Made by a program: the position numbers and the translations under genes. A stretch of DNA of 64,000 nt from Affinundibacterium baiyunense. Its GTDB lineage: Bacteria > Pseudomonadota > Gammaproteobacteria > Burkholderiales > Burkholderiaceae_D. Below are positions 41,184 through 54,019 of the stretch, piece by piece. How positions within the stretch are numbered: the first letter of the stretch is position 1; the number at the start of each line of letters is the position of its first letter. The stretch is taken from contig NZ_JAGSPM010000009.1 in the NCBI RefSeq assembly GCF_018139645.1, positions 1 to 64,000 of the forward strand, in the 5' to 3' direction. Below the pieces are notes generated by a model that searched no databases, had not been told where the DNA came from, and was given only the letters and a program-made list of their open reading frames with translations.

Positions 41184-41259
41184 GGCCTGGTAGCTCAGTC
41201 GGTAGAGCAGAGGATTGAAAATCCTTGTGTCGGTGGTTCGATTCCGCCCCGGGCCACCA
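41184..41259 (+). tRNA. tRNA-Phe (GAA anticodon)
   Basis: The 76-nt cloverleaf begins GGCCTGGTAGCTCAGTCGG and ends GGGCCACCA. The anticodon stem GAGGA/TCCTT encloses TTGAAAA, giving GAA (Phe). Its 3' end and terminator are partly repeated at 43457-43543, so it marks the left edge of an island. Confidence 0.97.
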
Positions 41260-41447: not shown

Positions 41448-42782
41448 TCAGCACTGATTGATAAGAATGGCCGCCTGTTTTTGTAGTCCCTCAATTATCG
41501 ACTCGGCAAGAGATAATGGAAAGTTTGCGGGCAATCTTCCATACACAGACTCAACAACTTTTGGGACCTGCGCAAGTACCTCTTCGATAATCTCTTCAGC
41601 GGTGATTGCACCTAGTCCCACCTGTTTTGCCACACTAGACCAATGTCGACGCTGGATAGGTTGAAGATGATAGTAGTTAGCGCTTCCTCGGACTGCCATA
41701 GCGAGTTTAGCGTCCTGTGGCGAAATCATATTAGGTCCTGTACCAATAACTGGGTGTGCAGATAACACGTCATAGATTGGCGTTGCCTGATATCGAGCAT
41801 TCGGCTGTAAGAAAATACTGAATTTTTTTGCGTGCCCATCGATTGCCGCGAGCAACCAAAAGATGACTTGGGTTTTAAAGAAATTTTGTCTGTCTTTTAC
41901 CGCGCTTTCGGAGCCCAACAACAGCCGCATAATCGCTTCAATTCCTGGTCCGCCATCTCTCTGATATTTATTGAGCGGTGAACATCCCAAGGCTTGACAC
42001 ATGTCTTCTTGCGGCAGACGAACAATCCAACTTCTGTCATCGGAATACTTCCGATCGAATCTTTCTACAGAAAGCACTTTTTGTTCTTCAAACTGCAGAA
42101 TTTCTGTCTTAGCAATCGGCAGATTAAACCCTTCAAGAATGATAGAACACAGCCATTCATTTTCTATCGATGTACTCATATCCGCGCGCATACTTCCAAC
42201 CAATCCGAGCGGCAATTTCAATATATGTGTGGTTGGAGTACTTCCAATTGGTAGGTACCAACCTCCCTGATGGTATAGGAGAGCATTTTTTTCCTGCGCA
42301 CCAGCGATGGAAATTCGGAAATCTTGATTATCATCGTGGTGTCCAAACGCATTTGGGTTAGTAGTATCACGCAATAATTTGGCGATCGCCTGTTCGTCTA
42401 ATGGACGTTTGCGGATAGAAAACAAGTCTTCGGGCTGCACATCTACAGGGAGTATTTGGGCGGCGCCCACGCAGTCTCTACCGATTGCCTCAAGTAGTTG
42501 AAACGGAGATGTGCCGCCTGTATTGTGGCGCATGGCAAGCCGACGTCGAATGATATCGCTGCCTGGTAATAAATTATCGAAATAGTTTATGACTACCTGA
42601 CCGGAATAGGCATCATTACTTGCCGTAAATGGCATCGACAATGACAATGGACGTCCGCCCTCGTCCTCTAACCACTCATTAAAGTAAGTGAAAGTAGAAG
42701 AATTTGCCTTGTTTCTCCATTGACCAACGGGAGTGCCGTTGAACCAAACATTAAGCGTATTTTGCTTTGATCTACGTGCCAT
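41448..42782 (-). CDS. hipA: HipA-type serine/threonine kinase toxin
   Basis: The 444-residue protein shows the HipA N-terminal coupling domain (VWFNGTPVGQWR), the loop RISIAGAQEK whose Ser158 matches the auto-phosphorylated Ser150 of E. coli HipA, and the catalytic AAIDGHAKKFSIFL with Asp315, then the metal-binding YDVLSAHP. HipA phosphorylates glutamyl-tRNA synthetase and halts growth. The length is close to the E. coli protein (440), so it looks intact. hipB ends three bases before its start on the same strand. It is the first gene inside the island from tRNA-Phe. Confidence 0.95.
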   Translation of the reverse strand: MARRSKQNTLNVWFNGTPVGQWRNKANSSTFTYFNEWLEDEGGRPLSLSMPFTASNDAYSGQVVINYFDNLLPGSDIIRRRLAMRHNTGGTSPFQLLEAIGRDCVGAAQILPVDVQPEDLFSIRKRPLDEQAIAKLLRDTTNPNAFGHHDDNQDFRISIAGAQEKNALLYHQGGWYLPIGSTPTTHILKLPLGLVGSMRADMSTSIENEWLCSIILEGFNLPIAKTEILQFEEQKVLSVERFDRKYSDDRSWIVRLPQEDMCQALGCSPLNKYQRDGGPGIEAIMRLLLGSESAVKDRQNFFKTQVIFWLLAAIDGHAKKFSIFLQPNARYQATPIYDVLSAHPVIGTGPNMISPQDAKLAMAVRGSANYYHLQPIQRRHWSSVAKQVGLGAITAEEIIEEVLAQVPKVVESVYGRLPANFPLSLAESIIEGLQKQAAILINQC

Positions 42783-42785
42783 GCA

Positions 42786-43235
42786 TCACCATTTCGTCGT
42801 GTCTGAACGCTTACTTAGTTTTGCAGGTGAGACCAAGGTTCGTTTTTTGTTTACGCTAGTTTCTTCTTTGCTCGATAAAGTATTTGACTGCTTTTCTCTG
42901 GAGACTAGTTTTTTAGTACCTTGTTCTGCTTTGAAGTTCTGAGTTTTTTTAACTTTATTCGGAGTGACCAGATTTTTCGATGAAATGCTAGCGATCTCTG
43001 CCGCTGTTGATTGGACATCTGTCTGGCTCGTAAAATTAATATCGATATTCAATAGCCTAAGTATTGTGTAAAGTCGTTCAACGCTTGTGCTGGATAAGTT
43101 TGATTCAATTTGTGCATATGCTTGCTGAGACACCCCTAGTCGCTCAGCCATCGCCGCTTGCGTCAAGCCGGATTTTCGCCTAAAGCCTTGAACAAGTGGT
43201 TTTAGTTGATTGAGTGTTTGGATTCGATATTCCAT
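42786..43235 (-). CDS. hipB: HipB-type antitoxin with a long basic tail
   Basis: The 149-residue protein has an N-terminal XRE-type helix-turn-helix (FRRKSGLTQAAMAERLGVSQ, residues about 18-37) and then a low-complexity, Lys/Ser/Thr-rich tail from about residue 75 to the end. The usual HipB has about 90 residues and no such tail. It would neutralise HipA and repress the operon at the palindromes at 43279-43337. The start has TAGGAGCGC just upstream. The tail may be an added, disordered docking segment. Confidence 0.88.
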   Translation of the reverse strand: MEYRIQTLNQLKPLVQGFRRKSGLTQAAMAERLGVSQQAYAQIESNLSSTSVERLYTILRLLNIDINFTSQTDVQSTAAEIASISSKNLVTPNKVKKTQNFKAEQGTKKLVSREKQSNTLSSKEETSVNKKRTLVSPAKLSKRSDTTKW

Positions 43236-43278
43236 GCGCTCCTACTCCTGACAATTTAAATCGCCTACAAGTTTAGCA

Positions 43279-43337
43279 TTGTATTTCAACAATACAACAT
43301 AAAAATTGTATTTACAAATTACAATTTATACATTGTA
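43279..43337. promoter_or_regulatory. Palindromic operators upstream of hipBA
   Basis: TTGTATT-TCAAC-AATACAA (43279-43297) is a perfect inverted repeat. ATTGTA..TACAAT ends frame a second 21-bp dyad (43305-43325). TACATTGTA (43329-43337) is a third half-site. Repeated TTGTA/TACAA boxes in the hipBA promoter fit binding sites for HipB; the assignment is inferred. Confidence 0.7.
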
Positions 43338-43456
43338 ACGAGGAGTTGAAACATAAACATTGTTAAACGAAATTATCTTCGCCAAAAAGCGGAACTTATA
43401 AAGTGCATATTTCGGAGAAAAAATAAATCTAACTCATTGTTTTAAATGATTTAATC

Positions 43457-43543
43457 GAGGATTAAAAAATCCCTATCTCACCAACTTGATTCCCCCCGGG
43501 CCACCAAAATAATGCGGCTCACAGAAATGTGAGCCGTTTTCAT
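43457..43543 (+). pseudogene. Degenerate tRNA-Phe 3' half and terminator (island att-like repeat)
   Basis: From GAGGATTAAAAAATCCC onward this copy aligns with tRNA-Phe from the anticodon arm to CCA. Its T arm is decayed (CCAACTTGATTCC) and one base is missing in CCCCCCGGG. The exact part (GGGCCACCA) and the terminator CGGCTCACA-GAAA-TGTGAGCCGTTTT follow, with only small changes. It cannot be a working tRNA. It marks an integration scar beside tRNA-Phe. Confidence 0.85.
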
Positions 43544-43738: not shown

Positions 43739-45262
43739 TTAATCCAACAAATCCCCACCACCATCACGCAAATCTGCGAACTTCTTCGCCATGGTCGGAT
43801 TCCCTTTGGTCAGACGTTTAATCGTCACATCCTGCGCCTTATCGTTCGCCAAACGCAAATTGCGATCAGTGCCTAACAAAGCGTCTTTGGTCTTTTGCAG
43901 ATGATCAATGGACTTGTCGATTTCCTCGATGGCTTTTTGAAACTTGGCGGAAGCCAGCTCATAATTTCTACCGAACGCAGCCTTAAAGTTATCGAGTTCG
44001 CTCTCAAAATTGGTGATATCGATATTCTGCGATTTCACGAGCGCTAGCTCGTTCTTGTACTGCATAGAATTCATCGCCGCATTGCGCAACAGCGTGATCA
44101 TGGGGATAAAGAACTGCGGGCGCACCACATACATTTTGGGATAGCGATGAAAGACATCGACGATGCCCGAATTGTAGAGTTCGTTTTCTGGTTCTAGCAT
44201 CGACACCAAGATCGCGTATTCGCATTGCTTTTCTTGACGATCTTTGTCGAGCTCTTTCAAGAAATCTTCATTCTTTTTCTTGGTCGCGGTCTCTTCGTTT
44301 TCGTTTTTCATCTCGAACATGATCGAGACAATCTCGGTACCCGATTCATCAAAATCGCGGAAGATGAAATCGCCCTTACTGCCACTGCGCGCGTCATTGT
44401 CTTTCTCGAAATGGGCACGCGGAAAGGCCAAGGAGCGGATTTTATTGAACTCGATCTCACAATGCTGTTCCAAAGTTTCGCCCACCATCTTGGTCGACAA
44501 CTTGGCCTTCATATCCTTCAAACGCTCAATCGCTTCATCGCGATCTTTCAACTGCGTTTCGTATTTTTCCTTAAGAGCACTCTCGGCCAAACTACGTTCC
44601 AGCTGCGAACGCTCTAAACCATTTTTCAATTCATCACGCTGTTTCTCAACCGTGGTGATCGCCTCTTTAATCGCCAATTGCTCGCTGATAGCCTTGGCAT
44701 CCAACTGCGCTTTCAAACTCTGAATCTGCGCTTCTTTTTCCGCCGCAACTCTCTGCATCTCGGTTTGCAATTTCGCCTCCAACAAAGCCGACGCTGCTTC
44801 GCGATCACGCTTGGCTTGTGCCAACTCATTCGCCAAGGCATCGCGCTCTTTTTGCACCTGACTCAAAGCCTCAGCCACCGCCAACTGCTTCTCAACACCC
44901 ACCGCATCGAGCTTAGATTTCAGCGCCACAATCTCAGCATCCTTACTCGCCGCCACGCGCTGCACCTCACTCGCACTCTTCGCCTCCGCCAACTGCACAG
45001 CCGTCTGCTTCTCTTGCGCAGCCAAGCTCAAACGTTCATGCAAAGCCTGCTCAAACTCCGCATCATGCACCTGCCGCACGATATCGGCATAACCAGTTTC
45101 ATCGATCTTGAAAGCTTTACTGCAATGGGGGCAATGATTTCGTTCATACGTCTTACCTAAAAATGGGGTGGCTGCACTATACATAAAGCGTGCGACATTC
45201 GCTCTCGTAATCGTGGCGTGATGGTCACAATCAGTGAGAACAAATTTAGTGCTTGTTCTCAA
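43739..45262 (-). CDS. DUF2130 coiled-coil nuclease-like protein
   Basis: The protein has up to 507 residues, with a CPHC knuckle (44-47), a long coiled coil (about 65-265) and a C-terminal domain with the PD-(D/E)XK pattern [14 protein letters not shown] (Asp298, Glu317, Lys319). This is DUF2130, a family of putative nucleases; the DNA target is not known. The TTG start at 45262 overlaps the upstream gene by 17 bases and has no clear ribosome site. The ATG at 45184 is an alternative that would lose an odd Cys/His-rich N-terminus. It belongs to the same run as the two following genes. Confidence 0.8.
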
Positions 45263-45968
45263 TTTCTACTAACCCAGCTAGCAGCCGTATTTTTTCGTGA
45301 AGTTCTGGCAGTCGCGCTTGACTGGCAGCATCACCGGGCAAATGCCCAGGTAAGGCTTGGACAAATGCTGGCGTTTGCAATAAGGCTCGTAAGCGATCAC
45401 GAAAGTATTCTCTCAGTTCTATTTTTGTTTGCGCGCATTCGGTGATAATCGTTTCGCGCCCATCAATAATGGCGAGTAAATCACCGAGGTCGTGGCTGAA
45501 TAAGTAGTCATCATTCCCACGCCCCGAAAAAGCTTCTAATTTGGTCGCCAGGAATAATGGCGCTGTGATACAACGTATCGCACATCCTGATGGCAAAACG
45601 ATCCTTTGCGCCATCTCCAATGCGTAGCCATACCAGCGATTAGAGAAGCCTAAAATTTCTTCTAGTGTCGGCATCAGATCAACGGTGATGCTTTGGATTT
45701 TCCAACGACAAATCGGTGCCTCAGCTTGCAAGTCTTGTATGAAACCACGTTCACGCAAACGCTTTTCAAGCTGATAGTAATCGCTATGCGCGATGACTTG
45801 CACGATCATATCCACGTCTTCAGTTGGACGAATCGCTGGCTGAGCAGGATCTGTGATCAGCAAACCCGCCACCGCACCACCAACAAAGACCACTTCATCT
45901 AGCAGCATGTCACCCAAGTGCTTGGCGACTAATTCGATCATCGCGATATTAGGATCATGTGGACTCAT
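45246..45968 (-). CDS. AbiEii/MenT-like nucleotidyltransferase
   Basis: The 240-residue protein has the polymerase-beta-type site: VGG at 29-31, acidic pair EDVD (Asp51, Asp53) and third acid Asp97 in ITVDLMP, then K143..R150 and the SHDLGDL block (Asp160, Asp163) of AbiEii/MenT toxins. Such toxins transfer nucleotides to tRNA or other RNA and act in abortive infection. It overlaps the upstream winged-helix gene by four bases (ATGA), a usual toxin-antitoxin layout. The substrate is inferred, not shown. Confidence 0.78.
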
Positions 45969-46510
45969 GCTTTGAGTCTTTCGTCTAGCATGCCAATTGC
46001 TAAAGCACGTTCCCTTGGGCTTCCACCACGTATGGCATCGAATAAAACGAGAAGTTCGTATAAGGCTGCGTTGCGCATCGCGGCTTGTGGCACGCTTGGG
46101 TACAGCGGATAAAAAGCAAAGCCACGCGCACTGCCTCCTTTATACGGCCACACAGGCAAGACACCACTTCCGGCAACGATCTTATCCGCTAAGGGTGCTG
46201 CCGCGTAACTGGTGGGCATCCCTCGCGATTCACTGCCGCGTGTCGCTGGGAATGCATAACGCGCGCCATGCTGTACAAACAAACGCAAAGCTTCTTTAAT
46301 CACGATTGCTTTGCCAGCTTCGTCCTTAAATAATAACTGCGCCGCCTCTGCACGTTTAACACCGGCGTGAATTTCCGATGCTGTCAAACATAGTTCGTCA
46401 GCTAAACTTGCATAAGTTGGTGCGGGCCCATTCTCCAAAGAGAGACGCAACAAGACGACCAAATCTTGGGGGCGCAAAATAATTTGAGGATTTGTTTTAA
46501 CAGCAGTCAT
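45965..46510 (-). CDS. Winged-helix protein paired with the nucleotidyltransferase
   Basis: The protein (181 residues from the ATG at 46510; ATG 46528 and GTG 46543 are further options) has an N-terminal MarR-like winged-helix domain (LSLENGPAPTYASLADELCLTASEIHAGVKRAEAAQLL) and a C-terminal part of unknown fold with PYKGGSARGFAFYPLYPSVPQAA. It looks like the antitoxin/repressor of the pair. Two palindromes CTATTC(G/A)CGAATAG lie just upstream. It overlaps the next gene by four bases. Confidence 0.72.
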   Translation of the reverse strand: MTAVKTNPQIILRPQDLVVLLRLSLENGPAPTYASLADELCLTASEIHAGVKRAEAAQLLFKDEAGKAIVIKEALRLFVQHGARYAFPATRGSESRGMPTSYAAAPLADKIVAGSGVLPVWPYKGGSARGFAFYPLYPSVPQAAMRNAALYELLVLFDAIRGGSPRERALAIGMLDERLKA

Positions 46511-46530
46511 TGTCTTAAATGCAAACATCC

Positions 46531-46618
46531 ATTCTCTATTCACGAATAGAATATGTTCTTTATTTTTCCATTATTTGTCAATGATTTATTAAGGATATTC
46601 GTTATTCGCGAATAGCGA
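46531..46618. promoter_or_regulatory. Two CTATTCNCGAATAG operators upstream of the winged-helix gene
   Basis: CTATTCACGAATAG (46536-46549) and TTATTCGCGAATAG (within 46597-46618) are two near-perfect copies of one 14-bp dyad, about 60 bases apart. The first overlaps the GTG start option, which argues for the ATG at 46528 or 46510. It fits auto-repression. Confidence 0.75.
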
Positions 46619-46756: not shown

Positions 46757-49700
46757 TCAACTACTCCACCCATGACTCAACACCTCAGCCTGCTTCAAGC
46801 ACAGTTCAATCGCTTCATCGGCTTTGTCTGGTGGGTACTTCCATTTTCTGAGGGCGCGGCGTACTAAGTTGCGTAGTTTGGCGCGGACGCTGTCGCGTAC
46901 TTGCCAATCGACCGTGGTGGAGGCGCGTAGTTGTTCGGTGACGTATTTGGCTAGGTCGCGTAAGTTGTTGTCGCCTAGTTCGCGGACTGCGGCTTCGTTT
47001 TGAATCAGGGCGCGGTAGAAGGCGATTTCATCGGCATTCAAGCCAAGCCTAGCCGCTTGCTCTGCGTCTGCTGCCATGTCTTTCGCCATCTGGATCATCT
47101 CTTCGATCACCTGTGCGGTTTCGATGGCGCGGTTATGGTACTTGCGTAGGGTTTCTAAGATGCGATCTGAGTATTTTTTCTCCGATACCACGTCAGTTTT
47201 CATACGTGCTTTGACTTCATCGCGCAATAACTTTTCCAAGAGTTCGACGGCAAGGTTCTTTTGCGGTAAGTTGGCCACGTCATCTAAGAATTCGGGCGAA
47301 AGCAAACCGATGTTCGGTTTGTCTAAGCCGACCAATTTAAAAATATCATCCACGCCTTCCGCAATGATGGCGTTGTCGATGATTTGTTTCATCGCGCTAT
47401 TGCGTTCTTCATCGGTGCGGCGTTTGTCGATGGTGGTGAATTTAGTGATGGCGTGCTTTACCGCGCTTAAGAAAGCGACTTCTTTTTTGACCGGGCCGAC
47501 TTCGTCCAAGGTACTGCACAAGGTGTAGGCTTTACTCAAGGCGGCCATGACGTCTAGGAAGCGTTTCTTACCATCCAGTTCACCATTCGCCCCCTTGATG
47601 CTAAACAAATAATTCATCGCACCGGGCAATAGTTGTAAAGCCTTGGTTTCAAATTGGCTGTAGTCAAAACCATGAAACATGGCGTGTATGATCTCCAGCT
47701 TCTCTAAAAAGATGGCATAGGCTTCGTGCGTGTCGAGCGTTGGTTTGCCTTTGCCTTGCGAATTGGTGTACGTGTGCAAAGCTTTTTTCAGTTCGCTCGC
47801 AATGCCGATATAGTCCACCACCAAGCCGCCTGGTTTATCTTTGAAAACGCGGTTCACTCGTGCAATCGCTTGCATCAAGTTATGCCCCTTCATCGGCTTA
47901 TCGATGTACATGGTGTGGCAATTCGGCGCATCAAAACCCGTGAGCCACATGTCACGCACAATTACCAAACGCAATGGATCATTCACATCTTTGAAGCGTT
48001 TCTCAAACAGTTTTTTCGTTTCTTTGTTGTAGATGTGTGCTTGCAGCTTTGTTTTATCAGAAGCCGAACCCGTCATCACAATTTTGATCGCGCCTTTATT
48101 CGGATCGGCATCGTGCCACTCCGGTCGCAATGCGGTGATGGCGTTGTACATATCCACGCAAATCTCGCGACTCATGCACACCAGCATGCCCTTGCCCGGC
48201 ATACTCGCAGTTCTACTTTCAAAGTGGGCGACAAGGTCTGCCGCCACTTGTTGAATACGCGGGTCACTACCGACCAACTTCTCTAACGCAGCCCATTGCG
48301 ATTTAGTGCTTTCGCGGGTAGCAACGTCTTCTTCATCTTCGATAATTTCTTCAATCTCTTCATTCAGGTCTTCAATGCCCGCTTGATCAATATTCAATTT
48401 AGCGAGACGCGATTCGTAGTAGATCGGCACCGTGGCGCCATCATCGACCGCATCTTGAATATCGTAGATCGACACATAATCACCAAACACCGCTTTGGTA
48501 TCTTTGTCTGCTGAATCAATTGGTGTGCCCGTAAAGCCAATGAAAGACGCTTCTGGCAATGCATCTCGCATATGCTTGGAATAGCCAAAGCTATATTGCC
48601 CCGTCTTGGTGTTGAATTTGGCTTTGTCGCCATATTGGCTACGGTGCGCTTCGTCACTCACCACCACAATATTATGGCGTGTCGATAACACCGGATGCAT
48701 CGTCTCTTCGCCTAGCAAAGCAAACTTCTGCACCGTGGTAAAGATAATGCCGCCCGATTGGCGTGATGAGAGCAGTTCACGCAAGCTATCGCGGTCTTCT
48801 GCTTGCACTGGCGTTTGCTTCAATGATTCTTGCGCCAAGCTGAAGGTGTTATACAACTGCCCGTCCAAATCATTGCGATCGGTGACGACCACAATGGTGG
48901 GGTTATTCATTTCAGGTTGCGCTAACAGCTTGGCCGCATAACACAACATCGAGATCGATTTACCTGAGCCTTGCGTATGCCACACCACACCCGCCTTGCC
49001 TGATCCCGGCACGACTTCATTCGCATAGTTGGCACGTGGTTGCATGACGCTGCGCCCATCGGCACGCTGAGCCGCAATCACGGTGGCGCGAACCGCTTCG
49101 CGCACGGCATGGAACTGATGGTAGCCCGCAATTTTCTTAATCGTGGTATCACCATCTTGCTCATACAAAATGAAGAAGCGAATGTAATCAAGGTAGAGCT
49201 CGGGCTTGAAGAAACCTTTGACCAAGGTCTCAAGCTGATATTCAAATTTGGGTTTGTCGTTTTCATTCGCGACAGTGCGCCAAGGTAAAAAGCGCTCTTT
49301 GTTTGACGTCAGCGAACCAACGCGCGCGACAATACCATCACTGACGACCACGGCTTCATTAAAAACAAATAACTCAGGAATTTCGTCTTTATAGGTTTGA
49401 ATCTGTTGGAAAGCCTGCCAAATATCTGCATTCTGATCGGCAGGATTTTTCAGCTCCAAAATCGCCAAAGGCAAGCCATTAATGAAGACCAAGACATCAG
49501 GGCGACGATCAATTTTCTTACCCACCAAACTGTACTGATTCACGACCAAAAACTGATTATTGCTAGGCACAGCAAAATCAATCAAACGCACATAATCGAT
49601 TTTGGCATCAGCACCGCTATCACCATCCTGCGTCTTAAACTCAACCTTCACACCCTCTAACACCAACTGATGAATCGCTTTATTGCTCTTGATCAGTGTT

Positions 49701-49933
49701 AAAGACTCGGGCTTAGCCAAAGACAAAGCCACCTGCTCCAGTGTCGCCAAGGGAATGTGCGGATTGATGCGTTGTAAAGCAGTGATCAAACGCTGCGTCA
49801 AAATAATCTGACGATAATCGACACGCTCTGGTTGCGAACCTTCGGGCGCGATATCATAGCCACAGACGTAGTCGTAACCGATCTCTTGAAACCATGAAAG
49901 GCAGAGTTGTTCTAGTTGGTCTTCGGTGATCAT
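46757..49933 (-). CDS. hsdR: Type I restriction enzyme R (endonuclease/translocase) subunit
   Basis: The 1058-residue protein has the N-terminal nuclease with PD-(D/E)XK residues Asp146, Glu160 and Lys162 (RPDVLVFINGLPLAILELKN), the helicase Walker A QGSGKS (Lys325), DEAH (427-430) and later ARVNRVFKDKPGGLVVDYIG. The start has AAAAGGATAGG before the ATG. It cuts unmodified DNA away from the recognition site with HsdM and HsdS. It is split from hsdS by a REP/RAYT element, so its transcription may depend on read-through or on that element. Confidence 0.96.
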   Translation of the reverse strand: MITEDQLEQLCLSWFQEIGYDYVCGYDIAPEGSQPERVDYRQIILTQRLITALQRINPHIPLATLEQVALSLAKPESLTLIKSNKAIHQLVLEGVKVEFKTQDGDSGADAKIDYVRLIDFAVPSNNQFLVVNQYSLVGKKIDRRPDVLVFINGLPLAILELKNPADQNADIWQAFQQIQTYKDEIPELFVFNEAVVVSDGIVARVGSLTSNKERFLPWRTVANENDKPKFEYQLETLVKGFFKPELYLDYIRFFILYEQDGDTTIKKIAGYHQFHAVREAVRATVIAAQRADGRSVMQPRANYANEVVPGSGKAGVVWHTQGSGKSISMLCYAAKLLAQPEMNNPTIVVVTDRNDLDGQLYNTFSLAQESLKQTPVQAEDRDSLRELLSSRQSGGIIFTTVQKFALLGEETMHPVLSTRHNIVVVSDEAHRSQYGDKAKFNTKTGQYSFGYSKHMRDALPEASFIGFTGTPIDSADKDTKAVFGDYVSIYDIQDAVDDGATVPIYYESRLAKLNIDQAGIEDLNEEIEEIIEDEEDVATRESTKSQWAALEKLVGSDPRIQQVAADLVAHFESRTASMPGKGMLVCMSREICVDMYNAITALRPEWHDADPNKGAIKIVMTGSASDKTKLQAHIYNKETKKLFEKRFKDVNDPLRLVIVRDMWLTGFDAPNCHTMYIDKPMKGHNLMQAIARVNRVFKDKPGGLVVDYIGIASELKKALHTYTNSQGKGKPTLDTHEAYAIFLEKLEIIHAMFHGFDYSQFETKALQLLPGAMNYLFSIKGANGELDGKKRFLDVMAALSKAYTLCSTLDEVGPVKKEVAFLSAVKHAITKFTTIDKRRTDEERNSAMKQIIDNAIIAEGVDDIFKLVGLDKPNIGLLSPEFLDDVANLPQKNLAVELLEKLLRDEVKARMKTDVVSEKKYSDRILETLRKYHNRAIETAQVIEEMIQMAKDMAADAEQAARLGLNADEIAFYRALIQNEAAVRELGDNNLRDLAKYVTEQLRASTTVDWQVRDSVRAKLRNLVRRALRKWKYPPDKADEAIELCLKQAEVLSHGWSS

Positions 49934-49989: not shown

Positions 49990-50115
49990 GTAGGGCGCAA
50001 TGTATTGCGCCATTGTTTCAACCACGCACCGTGGCATTTTTTTCGATTCCATGAGTTTCACCATCGAACACACCATATTCGATCATCCCATGCGGCGCAA
50101 TGCATTGCGCCCTAC
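49990..50115. repeat. Left paired-REP element (BIME-like) flanking the RAYT gene
   Basis: A GTAG-headed palindrome (GTAGGGCGCAATG..ATTGCGCC, 49990-50011) faces an inverse copy at 50094-50115, with 82 bases between. The whole 126-bp module is a direct copy of 50756-50880 (about 85% alike by eye). The GTAG ends point outward. Confidence 0.88.
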
Positions 50116-50119
50116 AATC

Positions 50120-50623
50120 TTATTCTCCCGCCCAATCTGCCGCATACACACCTTGTTCCACCAAACCATGAAAAGTGGAGTGCGGCCAATCGGCTACTTT
50201 GCTCACTAAACCATGTTTGACGGGATTGATGTGCACATAGTTCATGTGCATCGCATAATCATCTTCGTCGCGTATCAAATGTTCCCAAAAGCGGCGTTGC
50301 CAAATACCACGCTCCCCCCGTTTCACACGCGTCGCGGAAAGGGTTTCCCCCTTGGGAAGTGACTTCGAAAAAATTGCCTTAATGCGCCGCCAACGCATGG
50401 CAAAATCAACATCACCTTGCGGTAATTCGATGATGCAATGCAAATGATCAGGTAGCACCACCCAAGCGTGTATTACGAACGGATGAGTCACTTTTACCTC
50501 GCGCACCGCGATACGCAGTAAATCAATATGCCGCACCAATAAATCATTTCCCTTACGTTCCAATAAGTTCACCGTAAAAAAATAGGTGCCTCCCGGATAC
50601 CACAAACGTCGATAATTTGGCAC
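50120..50623 (-). CDS. REP-associated tyrosine transposase (RAYT)
   Basis: The 167-residue frame begins at a GTG (50623) with GGGAG seven bases upstream; this is the usual RAYT start, PNYRR..PGGTYFFTVNLLER. The longer open frame toward 50779 only translates REP DNA. It has the HUH motif PDHLHCII and the catalytic tyrosine in MNYVHINPVKHGLV, of the Y1/IS200 class. RAYTs recognise and move GTAG-headed REPs, and such REPs surround this gene. It lies between hsdS and hsdR, all on one strand. Confidence 0.93.
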   Translation of the reverse strand: MPNYRRLWYPGGTYFFTVNLLERKGNDLLVRHIDLLRIAVREVKVTHPFVIHAWVVLPDHLHCIIELPQGDVDFAMRWRRIKAIFSKSLPKGETLSATRVKRGERGIWQRRFWEHLIRDEDDYAMHMNYVHINPVKHGLVSKVADWPHSTFHGLVEQGVYAADWAGE

Positions 50624-50695
50624 AGCGCATCTCCCATCCGTAACAAGTATTACGAAACCCCACCCTCCAAAAAACAAACCACGAAGCGTCGCGGC

Positions 50696-50717
50696 GTAAG
50701 GCGCAATGCATTGCACC
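50696..50717 (+). repeat. Single REP palindrome upstream of the RAYT
   Basis: GTAAGGCGCAATGCATTGCACC differs at two places from the other copies. With its flanks (AACAAACCACGAAGCG, CGGTTCAACC) it is a tandem duplicate of the start of the right module 60 bases further on. Confidence 0.8.
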
Positions 50718-50755
50718 ATCGGTTCAACCACTCCGCCAAAAACAAACCAAGAAGC

Positions 50756-50880
50756 GTAGGGCGCAATGTATTGCGCCATTGTTTCAACCGCACATCACAG
50801 CATTTTTACGATCCCATGAGTTTCACCATCCATCACACCATATTCAACCACCCCATGCGGCGCAATTCATTGCGCCCTAC
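50756..50880. repeat. Right paired-REP element (BIME-like)
   Basis: The module starts at the REP 50756-50777 and ends at the inverse REP 50859-50880 (stem GGCGCAAT/ATTGCGCC). It is a direct copy of 49990-50115, so the RAYT is bracketed by two like-oriented modules. Together 49990-50880 looks like one mobilised unit. Confidence 0.88.
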
Positions 50881-50952
50881 GTCCCTAACAAATGAGAGGC
50901 GGAAGCATTGCTTACGAAAGCGCTATTGAAATTTTGAAGAATAAAAGAAGCC

Positions 50953-52350
50953 TCATTCATCGTTCACTCCGAAAATTGTGCCACCTGACAATAGCCTAGG
51001 CAGTAACGAATCACGCATTGAAACTAGGGTTAAATTTTCTAAAAGCAAAGATGTGATTGTTTCGTAGAACTTCGATGTATCTTTCGTATACGCCTGAATC
51101 AAGTCTTTACTGGGTACTAGGACTCGAATTAATCGAAAATTAGTCTTACTAATCTCTGCAAAAGTAGTGCCACTGGAACGCTGCTTGATCTCATCCATGA
51201 CCGACTCTGCCCATTGGACAACATATTCAGGACTAAGAATTTTCTCGCACTTCATTGCGATGTAACCCTGGTTGATGGCAACGGGAATTTTCGCAATCGC
51301 CAAGTAGCCGACAGGTGCGCGTGATGACATCAGCACAGTATTTTGAGGTAAGAGTCCCGAGCTAATTTTCGCTAAGCCAGCATCGGTAATTTTCCTATCG
51401 GTTTCCAAAAGTATTTTGTCGGTCAGATTGGATAAATCCTTTGGCGTAGTCCAATGATGTTGCCCGCCATCCCAAAACTCCACATTCGCTGTACTAGGCG
51501 TTCCTCCACCTACAACGTCAACCTCTTTGCCAATTTCACTAACCTCCCACCCTTCCGGAATCTCCCCCAACTCCGAATCAACTAGTGCGTCTGGGAATAG
51601 GGCTGCGGTGGCTTTTAGTTGGGCTAGGGTTTCTGGTGGGCTTTGGTTTAGTTGGTCTGAGGTTTTGCCGCTGATGGCGCACATGGCGGCTTGTTCTATG
51701 GCTGCTTGATCACCACCCGCTTCTTTCGCTGCAATCTTGGCGCGTGTGGGTTCGAAATCGACAAACCAACTCTTGAACATGGCTTGCGCGATTTGTTCTA
51801 GGGTTTGGTTGATTTGACGGTTGAGTTCGATTTTGTTGTGGCAATCAACCAAAATCTTCGCAATCTCTTTCTGCTTCTCCATGGGAGGTAAGACAATCGT
51901 CAATCGTTCGAGCATTTCGTTGTTAAGGCTCGCTCTTGTGGTCATATTTGTTAGGCTTAAGACTTGACGTCGGAACGAAGCATTCTTGAAGTAGAAAGAT
52001 GAATACTCTGGATTGATTTTAACCTTACCGTTTGGTCGCAAGCGTTTAGTGAAACCATTGAACGTTGCATTAGGATAGTCCTTTAAAGCCACACACGTGA
52101 TGCCCAATTCATCGAAGGTCTCACTTGTTCTGGTAATAAAAACATCACCACGCTTGATAGAACACTTCTTTCTCTCTGCTTCAGTGGTATTAGCTAAGTT
52201 AACCAACTCATCAGGCACAAAATAACTATTAAAAATTTCTTTAAAAGTTAAGAACGGGTAGCCAAAACCAAACGCTTCTCGACTCTTTGAGAGACCATTG
52301 GTTACATCAAACACATCAAGCAAAGCGTACTCTTTCCAATCAGAACTCAT
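50953..52350 (-). CDS. hsdS: Type I restriction enzyme S (specificity) subunit
   Basis: The 465-residue protein has two target-recognition domains, each followed by a helical repeat: first (residues 1-165) then LPPMEKQKEIAKILVDCHNKIELNRQINQTLEQIAQAMFKSWFVDFEP, second (about 250-440) then a short final helix. The two recognise the two halves of the DNA site. Its start overlaps the end of hsdM by 11 bases, as is usual. Confidence 0.96.
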   Translation of the reverse strand: MSSDWKEYALLDVFDVTNGLSKSREAFGFGYPFLTFKEIFNSYFVPDELVNLANTTEAERKKCSIKRGDVFITRTSETFDELGITCVALKDYPNATFNGFTKRLRPNGKVKINPEYSSFYFKNASFRRQVLSLTNMTTRASLNNEMLERLTIVLPPMEKQKEIAKILVDCHNKIELNRQINQTLEQIAQAMFKSWFVDFEPTRAKIAAKEAGGDQAAIEQAAMCAISGKTSDQLNQSPPETLAQLKATAALFPDALVDSELGEIPEGWEVSEIGKEVDVVGGGTPSTANVEFWDGGQHHWTTPKDLSNLTDKILLETDRKITDAGLAKISSGLLPQNTVLMSSRAPVGYLAIAKIPVAINQGYIAMKCEKILSPEYVVQWAESVMDEIKQRSSGTTFAEISKTNFRLIRVLVPSKDLIQAYTKDTSKFYETITSLLLENLTLVSMRDSLLPRLLSGGTIFGVNDE

Positions 52351-54019
52351 AACCCAACCCCGCCAAGTTCTTCTTGATCTCGCCTTCTAAGCGCGCACTT
52401 TCTTCAAACTGCGTTTTCAACTGCGCGGTCAAGCGCGTCATTTTTTCTGCGAAGGCTTCGCCATCTTCTTCGACTTCTTCTGCTCCCACATAGCGGCCGG
52501 GTGTCAACACGTAGTCCTGCTTTTGCATGTCTTCTAAACGAGCGCTGGCGCAGAATCCTTTTTGATCTTGGTAATCAATTCCGGTTTGCCAAGCATGATA
52601 AACATCGCAAATTTTCTTCAAGTCTTCTGCGGTGAAATCGCGCAGGACGCGGTCTTTCATGTAACCCAAATTGCGTGCATCGATGAACAAGACTTGTTGC
52701 TTGCGGTCGCGCAAAGCACGGCCACTGGCGGCAGTGCGTGCGCCTTTGTTTTTGGTGAGGAACCAAATACAGGCGGGGATTTGGGTGTTGGTGAACAGTT
52801 GCCCCGGTAGCGCCACCATACATTCGATCAAATCGTTGTCGATCAAGGCTTTGCGGATCTCGCCTTCGCCGCTGGTGTTGGAACTCATGGAGCCATTCGC
52901 CAACAGCAAACCCATGCTACCGTTGGGTGCTAAGTGATACAGCATGTGCTGCAACCATGCGAAGTTGGCATTGCCAGACGGTGGCTTGCCGTAGACCCAG
53001 CGGGGGTCGTTGTCGTCGACACCGGTATCCCATTCCTTCATATTGAATGGTGGATTGGCCATCACAAAATCGGCGCGCAGATCGGGATGTTGGTCGTTGG
53101 TGTAGGTGTTGGCAGGCTCTTTGCCGAAGTTAAATTCGATGCCACGGATCGCCATGTTCATGGCGGCGAGTTGCCATGTGGTGTGGTTGTACTCTTGCCC
53201 GTAAATCGAAATCTCACCGATACGACCTTGGTGCTCGCGTATGAATTGTTCCGACTGTACAAAGAAACCACCCGACCCCATAGCAGGGTCGTACACGCGG
53301 CCTTTGTAGGGTTCCAACATTTGCACGATCAAACTCACGATGGCTTTGGGCGTGTAGAACTGCCCGCCTTTTTTACCTTCGGCCAAAGCGAATTGACCGA
53401 GGAAGTATTCGTAGACGTGGCCGAGAATATCTTTGCTCGACAAAGAATCGTGCGTGAACGGGATGGTGGAAATCAGGTCGATCAATTCACCAAGCTTGGC
53501 TTGGTCGATCTGCAATTGCGTATAGCGTTTGTTCAACACGCCTTTGAGTTTGGTGTTGTCTAACTCAATCGCTTCCAGCGCATTGTCGATCAAATGCCCG
53601 ACGGAACTCACCTTTACTTTTTGCGCCTTGCCGTTGACGAGCACTTCAAGCTCTGCACCACCAATGACGACTTTATTGTGATCGCGCAAGAATTGCCAAC
53701 GTGCGACGGGCGGCACCCAGAAGGTATTAGTCTCCAAGTAGAAGTCGCGCACTTCTAATTCATTCGCAATTTCAGCCTGATACTCGGCTTCGTCCATGCC
53801 GTCTGGGTCGAGATAGTTTTCATGCTGAGGATCAGCGATTTGTTTGGCGAGCTCTTCTCGACGCAAATCAAAGGCGTCGGACACATATTTCAAAAAGATC
53901 AGACCAAGCATGACGTGCTTGTACTGCGCCGCATCGAGTGCGGGCAAAAGCTTATTGGCGCTGGTCCAGAGTTTCTTTTCTAGGCTGTTGAGGAATTCTT
54001 GTTCGTTCTGATCGACCAT
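52340..54019 (-). CDS. hsdM: Type I restriction enzyme M (DNA methyltransferase) subunit
   Basis: The 559-residue protein carries the N6-adenine methyltransferase motifs DPAMGSGGFF (244-253) and NPPF (322-325) and the N-terminal HsdM helical domain. It methylates the sites chosen by HsdS. First gene of the hsdM-hsdS-RAYT-hsdR run. A dyad ATGCTC/GAGCAT lies 22-43 bases upstream of the start. Confidence 0.97.
   Translation of the reverse strand: MVDQNEQEFLNSLEKKLWTSANKLLPALDAAQYKHVMLGLIFLKYVSDAFDLRREELAKQIADPQHENYLDPDGMDEAEYQAEIANELEVRDFYLETNTFWVPPVARWQFLRDHNKVVIGGAELEVLVNGKAQKVKVSSVGHLIDNALEAIELDNTKLKGVLNKRYTQLQIDQAKLGELIDLISTIPFTHDSLSSKDILGHVYEYFLGQFALAEGKKGGQFYTPKAIVSLIVQMLEPYKGRVYDPAMGSGGFFVQSEQFIREHQGRIGEISIYGQEYNHTTWQLAAMNMAIRGIEFNFGKEPANTYTNDQHPDLRADFVMANPPFNMKEWDTGVDDNDPRWVYGKPPSGNANFAWLQHMLYHLAPNGSMGLLLANGSMSSNTSGEGEIRKALIDNDLIECMVALPGQLFTNTQIPACIWFLTKNKGARTAASGRALRDRKQQVLFIDARNLGYMKDRVLRDFTAEDLKKICDVYHAWQTGIDYQDQKGFCASARLEDMQKQDYVLTPGRYVGAEEVEEDGEAFAEKMTRLTAQLKTQFEESARLEGEIKKNLAGLGYEF

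Follow-up and report, generated by a model that had tools for sequence, protein, structure and literature searches.

The gap between hsdS and hsdR in a type I restriction locus of Affinundibacterium baiyunense holds an intact RAYT (TnpA_REP) gene, two like-oriented REP pairs (REPINs) and a fifth REP. The element is a REPtron, an arrangement of a known kind, and what is unusual is its setting in a mobile hsd locus. With a probability of roughly 0.7, we judge from sequence comparisons that this REPtron is a passenger of a horizontally moving type I restriction locus and not a composite transposon. Three observations favour this reading: the nearest RAYTs lie at the same hsdR gene, the strict REPs are confined to the locus, and the hsd block is found at differing chromosomal places among relatives. 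Two others weaken it, namely an excess of loose REP matches elsewhere in the host genome and a weak hsdS score in one relative.

Anatomy of the locus

Positions given below refer to the window, which is the whole stretch of 64,000 nucleotides that was analysed (Table 1). The host genome is designated G000, and related genomes carry handles of the same form. The genes hsdM, hsdS, RAYT and hsdR all run in one direction, on the minus strand. An earlier note on this DNA had described the transposase gene as lying in the hsdS-hsdR gap between two like-oriented modules of about 125 bp, and our analysis bears out this anatomy. The left and right modules are 88% identical over 127 alignment columns in the same orientation (E 7.5e-40), and each consists of a GTAG-headed palindrome with 8-bp arms and a 2-nt centre that faces an inverse palindrome. 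The fifth REP, likewise as proposed, belongs to a partial tandem duplication with copies at 50660 and 50728.

Table 1. Features of the hsd locus and its surroundings in the window
Feature	Positions	Strand	Remarks
tRNA-Phe	41184..41259	+	G031 synteny breaks directly after
Variable segment	41264..54717		Other genes in G031
13-bp copy of tRNA-Phe 3' end	43494..43506	+	Possible attachment-site remnant
PDC-M21B, partner of PDC-M21A	45246..45968	-	PADLOC E 1.2e-69; Pfam AbiEii below cut-off
PDC-M21A, candidate defence gene	45965..46543	-	PADLOC E 1e-37
hsdR, type I restriction subunit	46757..49933	-	TIGR00348 E 4.6e-188
Left REP pair (REPIN)	49990..50115	+	126 bp; REP 49990-50011, inverse REP 50094-50115; from sequence and folds
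RAYT (TnpA_REP) gene	50120..50623	-	GTG start, 167 aa; NCBIfam NF047646, PDB 4er8, invariant H60/H62/Y129
Tandem duplication carrying fifth REP	50660..50795	+	Spacing 68 bp; outer limits approximate; repeat family D3
Fifth REP, GTAA head	50696..50717	+	
Right REP pair (REPIN)	50756..50880	+	125 bp; REP 50756-50777, inverse REP 50859-50880
GTCCCTAA beyond outer inverse REP	50881..50888	+	Identical in G010; GTCCCT in G051; GTCACT in G022
hsdS, specificity subunit	50953..52350	-	PF01420 E 3.5e-38
hsdM, methylase subunit	52340..54019	-	PF02384 E 8.9e-113

The RAYT gene

The predicted protein scores 202.9 bits with the RAYT family model against a cut-off of 80 (E 2e-60, obtained on the longer frame), and it matches the solved TnpArep structure over its length (E 2.3e-48). 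The broad Pfam model Y1_Tnp gave 19.4 bits, which is under its cut-off of 23. An HUH motif and a tyrosine are present, with H60, H62 and Y129 unchanged in all 11 sequences that were aligned, and Y129 pairs in the alignment with Tyr115 of the solved structure, a residue that we take to be catalytic. The open frame extends through the REPs to 50779, and in the alignment most relatives have their first residue at the position equivalent to GTG 50623, which is the start that had been suggested from the sequence.

In all ten pairs among G000, G010, G022, G051 and G009, dN/dS fell between 0.04 and 0.12 (dS up to 1.6, with the G051 sequence partial), and thus the protein is kept by purifying selection. 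The host genome also carries a second RAYT gene (C3:84919-85428) that is 50% identical to the first, and a narrow detector tuned to the window REP found no REP near it.

Structure and folding of the REP pairs

Each module has two inverted REPs, a spacer and a predicted hairpin fold, as a REPIN does, and REPs flank the RAYT gene on both sides, as they do in a REPtron. The z-scores of the folds range from -4.8 to -6.9, and the RNA folds of the two pairs reach -66.3 and -56.2 kcal/mol (z -6.9 and -5.2). Five strict REP cores were found, versus none for a reversed control pattern, and given these counts and the fold scores, chance is excluded as the origin of the REP structures.

The spacers of both window modules share some 40 bp that are lacking from the short right-position modules of G010, G022 and G051, which suggests that one window module was copied or converted from the other in this lineage, or that both kept an old form. 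A long module in G022 has a spacer unlike that of the window.

Folds of this strength would also suit a long-fixed control element, with hairpins that reduce or shield the transcription of either hsdR or the RAYT gene. The RAYT gene is co-directional with hsdR in G000, G010 and G022, and a terminator-like site lies ahead of it (50695-50678, minus strand), one of 4 such sites on both strands versus 1.4 in shuffled sequence. However, the element is absent from the gaps of G024, G028 and G031, whose hsdR is open, the sequence that separates the REP from hsdR varies across G000, G010 and G022, and a simple scan found no promoter-like site on the minus strand. We consider such a control function very unlikely.

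Repeat brackets around RAYT genes

To place the bracketed arrangement among its kind, 113 RAYT loci were considered, from which 2 duplicate genes and 4 loci with a flank shorter than 200 bases were dropped to leave 107, the window included. The controls were 122 places 3 kb away, and a locus had to be of sufficient length to supply one. Direct repeats bracket the gene at 62 of the 107 RAYT loci, and 4 of the 122 control places have such a bracket. For direct repeats of at least 60 bp the counts are 22 and 1, and for inverted repeats 84 and 2. Framing of the gene by direct copies therefore recurs in the RAYT family, and we rejected the candidate view that such a bracket is rare.

Counts from a generic REP detector (REPs on both sides at 27 of 102 loci versus 2 of 109 controls, with pairs on both sides in 2) were set aside because the detector was tuned to the window REP and missed most of the flanking repeats seen by BLAST.

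The accessible portion of one published account describes REP monomers or dimers on the flanks of RAYT genes (PMC3733652). The earlier note took association with single REPs to be the rule for RAYTs, a generalization at odds with another account, the available text of which reports one third of detected RAYTs as directly associated with BIMEs, on both sides in the case of the E. coli RAYT (PMC2817692).

Copy number and distribution of the REPs

The draft assembly of the host comprises 91 contigs totalling 4.27 Mb, with a completeness of 99%, and may lack repeats that fall at the gaps between contigs. A search of this draft for further copies of the 125-bp module or of this RAYT gene returned none. 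Rather than the many dispersed extragenic copies that characterize a REP family, we found five strict REP cores, all five at this locus, and 67 sites that match the core with at most 3 mismatches versus 15 for a control pattern. The GTAG head is absent at the ten off-locus loose sites that were inspected (L025-L034). The loose matches may include decayed REP copies elsewhere in the genome, and their excess counts against the REPtron being a passenger of the hsd locus.

The strict core is present in 13 of 43 genomes of the genus. All six cores of G010 and five of the seven in G022 lie inside the hsd gap. G009 has 18, of which 7 are on its RAYT contig, and in both G009 and G051 the cores occupy several contigs.

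Nearest RAYTs and the contents of the hsdS-hsdR gap

The nearest RAYTs found are those of G010, G022 and G051, which are 87-89% identical to that of the window and are all located upstream of the same hsdR. The G010 gene lies between hsdS and hsdR. In G022 the gene is behind an hsdS-like frame whose Methylase_S score of 20.4 bits is just under the cut-off of 22, the weak score mentioned at the outset. In G051 the genes preceding it encode a lipase and a MarR protein, and of hsdR there is a fragment, located where the contig ends. The assemblies of G022 and G051 are fragmented, with about 600 and 790 contigs. Among 78 further loci (L097-L174), with flanks of up to 6 kb and some shorter, none has a match to these Hsd proteins at 1e-5.

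An HsdR of at least 86% identity occurs in six genomes, of which G000, G010 and G022 carry the RAYT gene and G024, G028 and G031 do not. The gap in G028 and G031 holds a SIR2 gene and an SLFN_AlbA gene, and that of G024 holds AbiL and Old genes. The presence of these defence genes marks the hsdS-hsdR gap as a pocket for defence cargo. On sequence comparison, the three gaps that lack a RAYT gene could reflect either loss or original absence.

This pattern of presence and absence would also be produced by a composite transposon, in which cleavage by the RAYT at the outermost REPs would mobilise gene and modules as one unit, a composite movement that the earlier note had proposed. Such a unit would fit the complete REP pairs that flank the gene on either side in G000 and G010, and also the outer REP's short extension, which is similar in G000, G010 and G051 and, with one change, in G022. 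However, the unit is single-copy in the host genome, the three nearest relatives lie beside the same hsdR, and in the related hsd loci searched the gap is filled by other genes and offers no clean empty site. Neither insertion at several sites nor a clean empty site was seen in the genomes searched, and we regard a composite transposon as highly improbable. The expectation that related hsd loci would differ in carriage of the unit held for G024, G028 and G031, but what these loci contain in its place is other genes and not an empty site. Taken as a whole, the first interpretation of this DNA is partly supported.

Chromosomal position of the hsd locus

An ABC transporter gene lies 6.5 kb from hsdR in the window. 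The identity of its product to that of the window is 97% in G031, 93% in G010, 91% in G024, 85% in G022 and 81% in G028, and the corresponding values for HsdR are 87, 88, 87, 87 and 89%. The HsdR values do not track host identity: G031 is the nearest host by the ABC transporter among eleven other genomes, and its HsdR is only 87% identical. Among themselves, the HsdR proteins of these five genomes are 93-98% identical.

In G010, G024, G028 and G031 the ABC transporter gene is on a different contig from hsd, and the hsd surroundings fetched from these genomes match the window only in the hsd genes and, for G010, also in the REP/RAYT part. By its neighbouring sequences, the hsd locus sits at other chromosomal places in these four congeners. 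In place of the variable segment of Table 1, G031 has approximately 6 kb in which AbiEii, integrase and NYN genes are found. The region looks like a tRNA-linked defence site. To judge whether the RAYT had arrived separately, dS was compared between G000 and G010. The values are 0.95 for RAYT, 1.04 for hsdM and 1.80 for hsdR, near saturation, and the agreement of RAYT and hsd is rough.

Elsewhere in the variable segment, a HipA-like gene and its HTH partner (41448-43506) lie between tRNA-Phe and the 13-bp copy of the tRNA end, and this stretch is possibly a small integrated unit.

If the REPtron is indeed a passenger of the hsd locus, the RAYT gene, under purifying selection, and its REPINs would ride in the variable hsdS-hsdR gap. 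The RAYT, which by family is an HUH/Tyr single-strand nuclease, is expected to recognise GTAG-headed hairpins, and we infer that it may occasionally duplicate or relocate REPINs within a short range. The gene and its flanks would change genome by transfer and, presumably, homologous exchange of the hsd/defence block, and would not transpose as a composite unit.

REP pairs at cargo borders

REPs are also found beside defence genes in several of these loci. The SLFN_AlbA gene of G010 lies between two REP pairs, and the PDC-M21 pair of G022 is bordered by a single REP on one side and by a REP pair on the other. A relative of PDC-M21A is located between RAYT and hsdR in both G022 and G051, and the join from RAYT to M21A is identical in these two genomes, which represent two genera. 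In the window, hsdR separates the PDC-M21 pair from the RAYT and no REPs accompany the pair, and the homology of the M21 cassette between the window and G022/G051 starts 13 bp past the REP. The stop codon of M21B in G022 is formed by the GTAG head of a REP pair, whereas window M21B has its own end, and in G022 the end of this defence gene seems to have given way to a REP pair. The MarR frame of G051 ends in the same way, with its stop made by a REP GTAG head. In G024 (L208 9092-10415), the 3' end of hsdM is duplicated (81 bp, 86%), and between the copies are a YhcG/DUF1016 gene and a REP pair that lies 3 bp from the break of the duplicated end.

Border positions of this kind in G010, G022 and G024, together with the point at which M21 homology begins, would be consistent with REP pairs serving as junctions at which defence cargo is exchanged in hsd loci, either through RAYT cutting or through homologous recombination between like-oriented REP pairs. 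However, no REP with at most 3 mismatches was found in the gap beside the G028 and G031 cargo or beside the AbiL/Old cargo of G024, and conservation across the six hsd loci ends approximately at the hsdR start codon and not at a REP. Moreover, REPs are often close to gene 3' ends according to the accessible portion of PMC3733652, and therefore the border positions may be trivial. We consider it unlikely that REP pairs act as the joints of a defence pocket through which anti-phage cargo is acquired, shed and rearranged in hsd loci, and continue to favour the REPtron as a passenger of the restriction locus.

Two further features were noted near the PDC-M21 genes of the window. A DUF2130 gene (43739-45262) adjoins the pair, and a 24-bp palindrome of the ATTCGCTATTCGCGAATAGCGAAT type (at most 5 mismatches) occurs upstream of PDC-M21A at 46531 and 46597. 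Palindromes of this type also lie beside unrelated cargo in the hsd pockets of G010 and G024, and the positions in the collected loci are L206 3831; L209 1232 and 1298; L232 2371 and 2437; and L208 6002. They are perhaps a shared operator.

Comparison with known systems

Transfer would have a concrete route in a REPtron of this kind, with strict REPs confined to its own site and, in several species, a horizontally moving restriction system as its neighbour. If REP pairs did prove to be joints for defence cargo, this would be a new role for them, and a supposedly domesticated transposase would be serving a mobile defence locus. Among the matches listed for the REP/RAYT literature, a scope that mostly leaves aside subscription papers, the term 'defence island' is absent, and the spelling 'defense island' occurs in one, a paper on CRISPR (PMC5513706) with a single word beginning with RAYT.

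A type I restriction cluster with nested defence genes has been described elsewhere. In TgvAB of Vibrio cholerae VPI-2, extra defence genes are nested in an hsd cluster as they are here, although the accessible portion of that account mentions no RAYT or REPs at the locus, unlike the window (PMC11411939).

As a REPtron, the element resembles those of E. coli yafM, Stenotrophomonas Sm and Pseudomonas fluorescens SBW25, which have the same protein family and GTAG-headed inverted REP pairs near the gene. E. coli has about six hundred REPs, according to the available text of PMC8266576, whereas the strict cores found in the host genome are at one locus, in the hsd gap. In the same text, no restriction locus is mentioned for REPtrons Ma and Mb of Marinomonas sp. 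MWYL1, unlike the hsd setting of the window. What these REPtrons have in common with the window is that their REPs are concentrated beside the tnpA_REP gene, a proximity that the authors read as a sign of recent arrival (PMC8266576). The locus described here is perhaps an early stage at which the spread of REPs can be watched.
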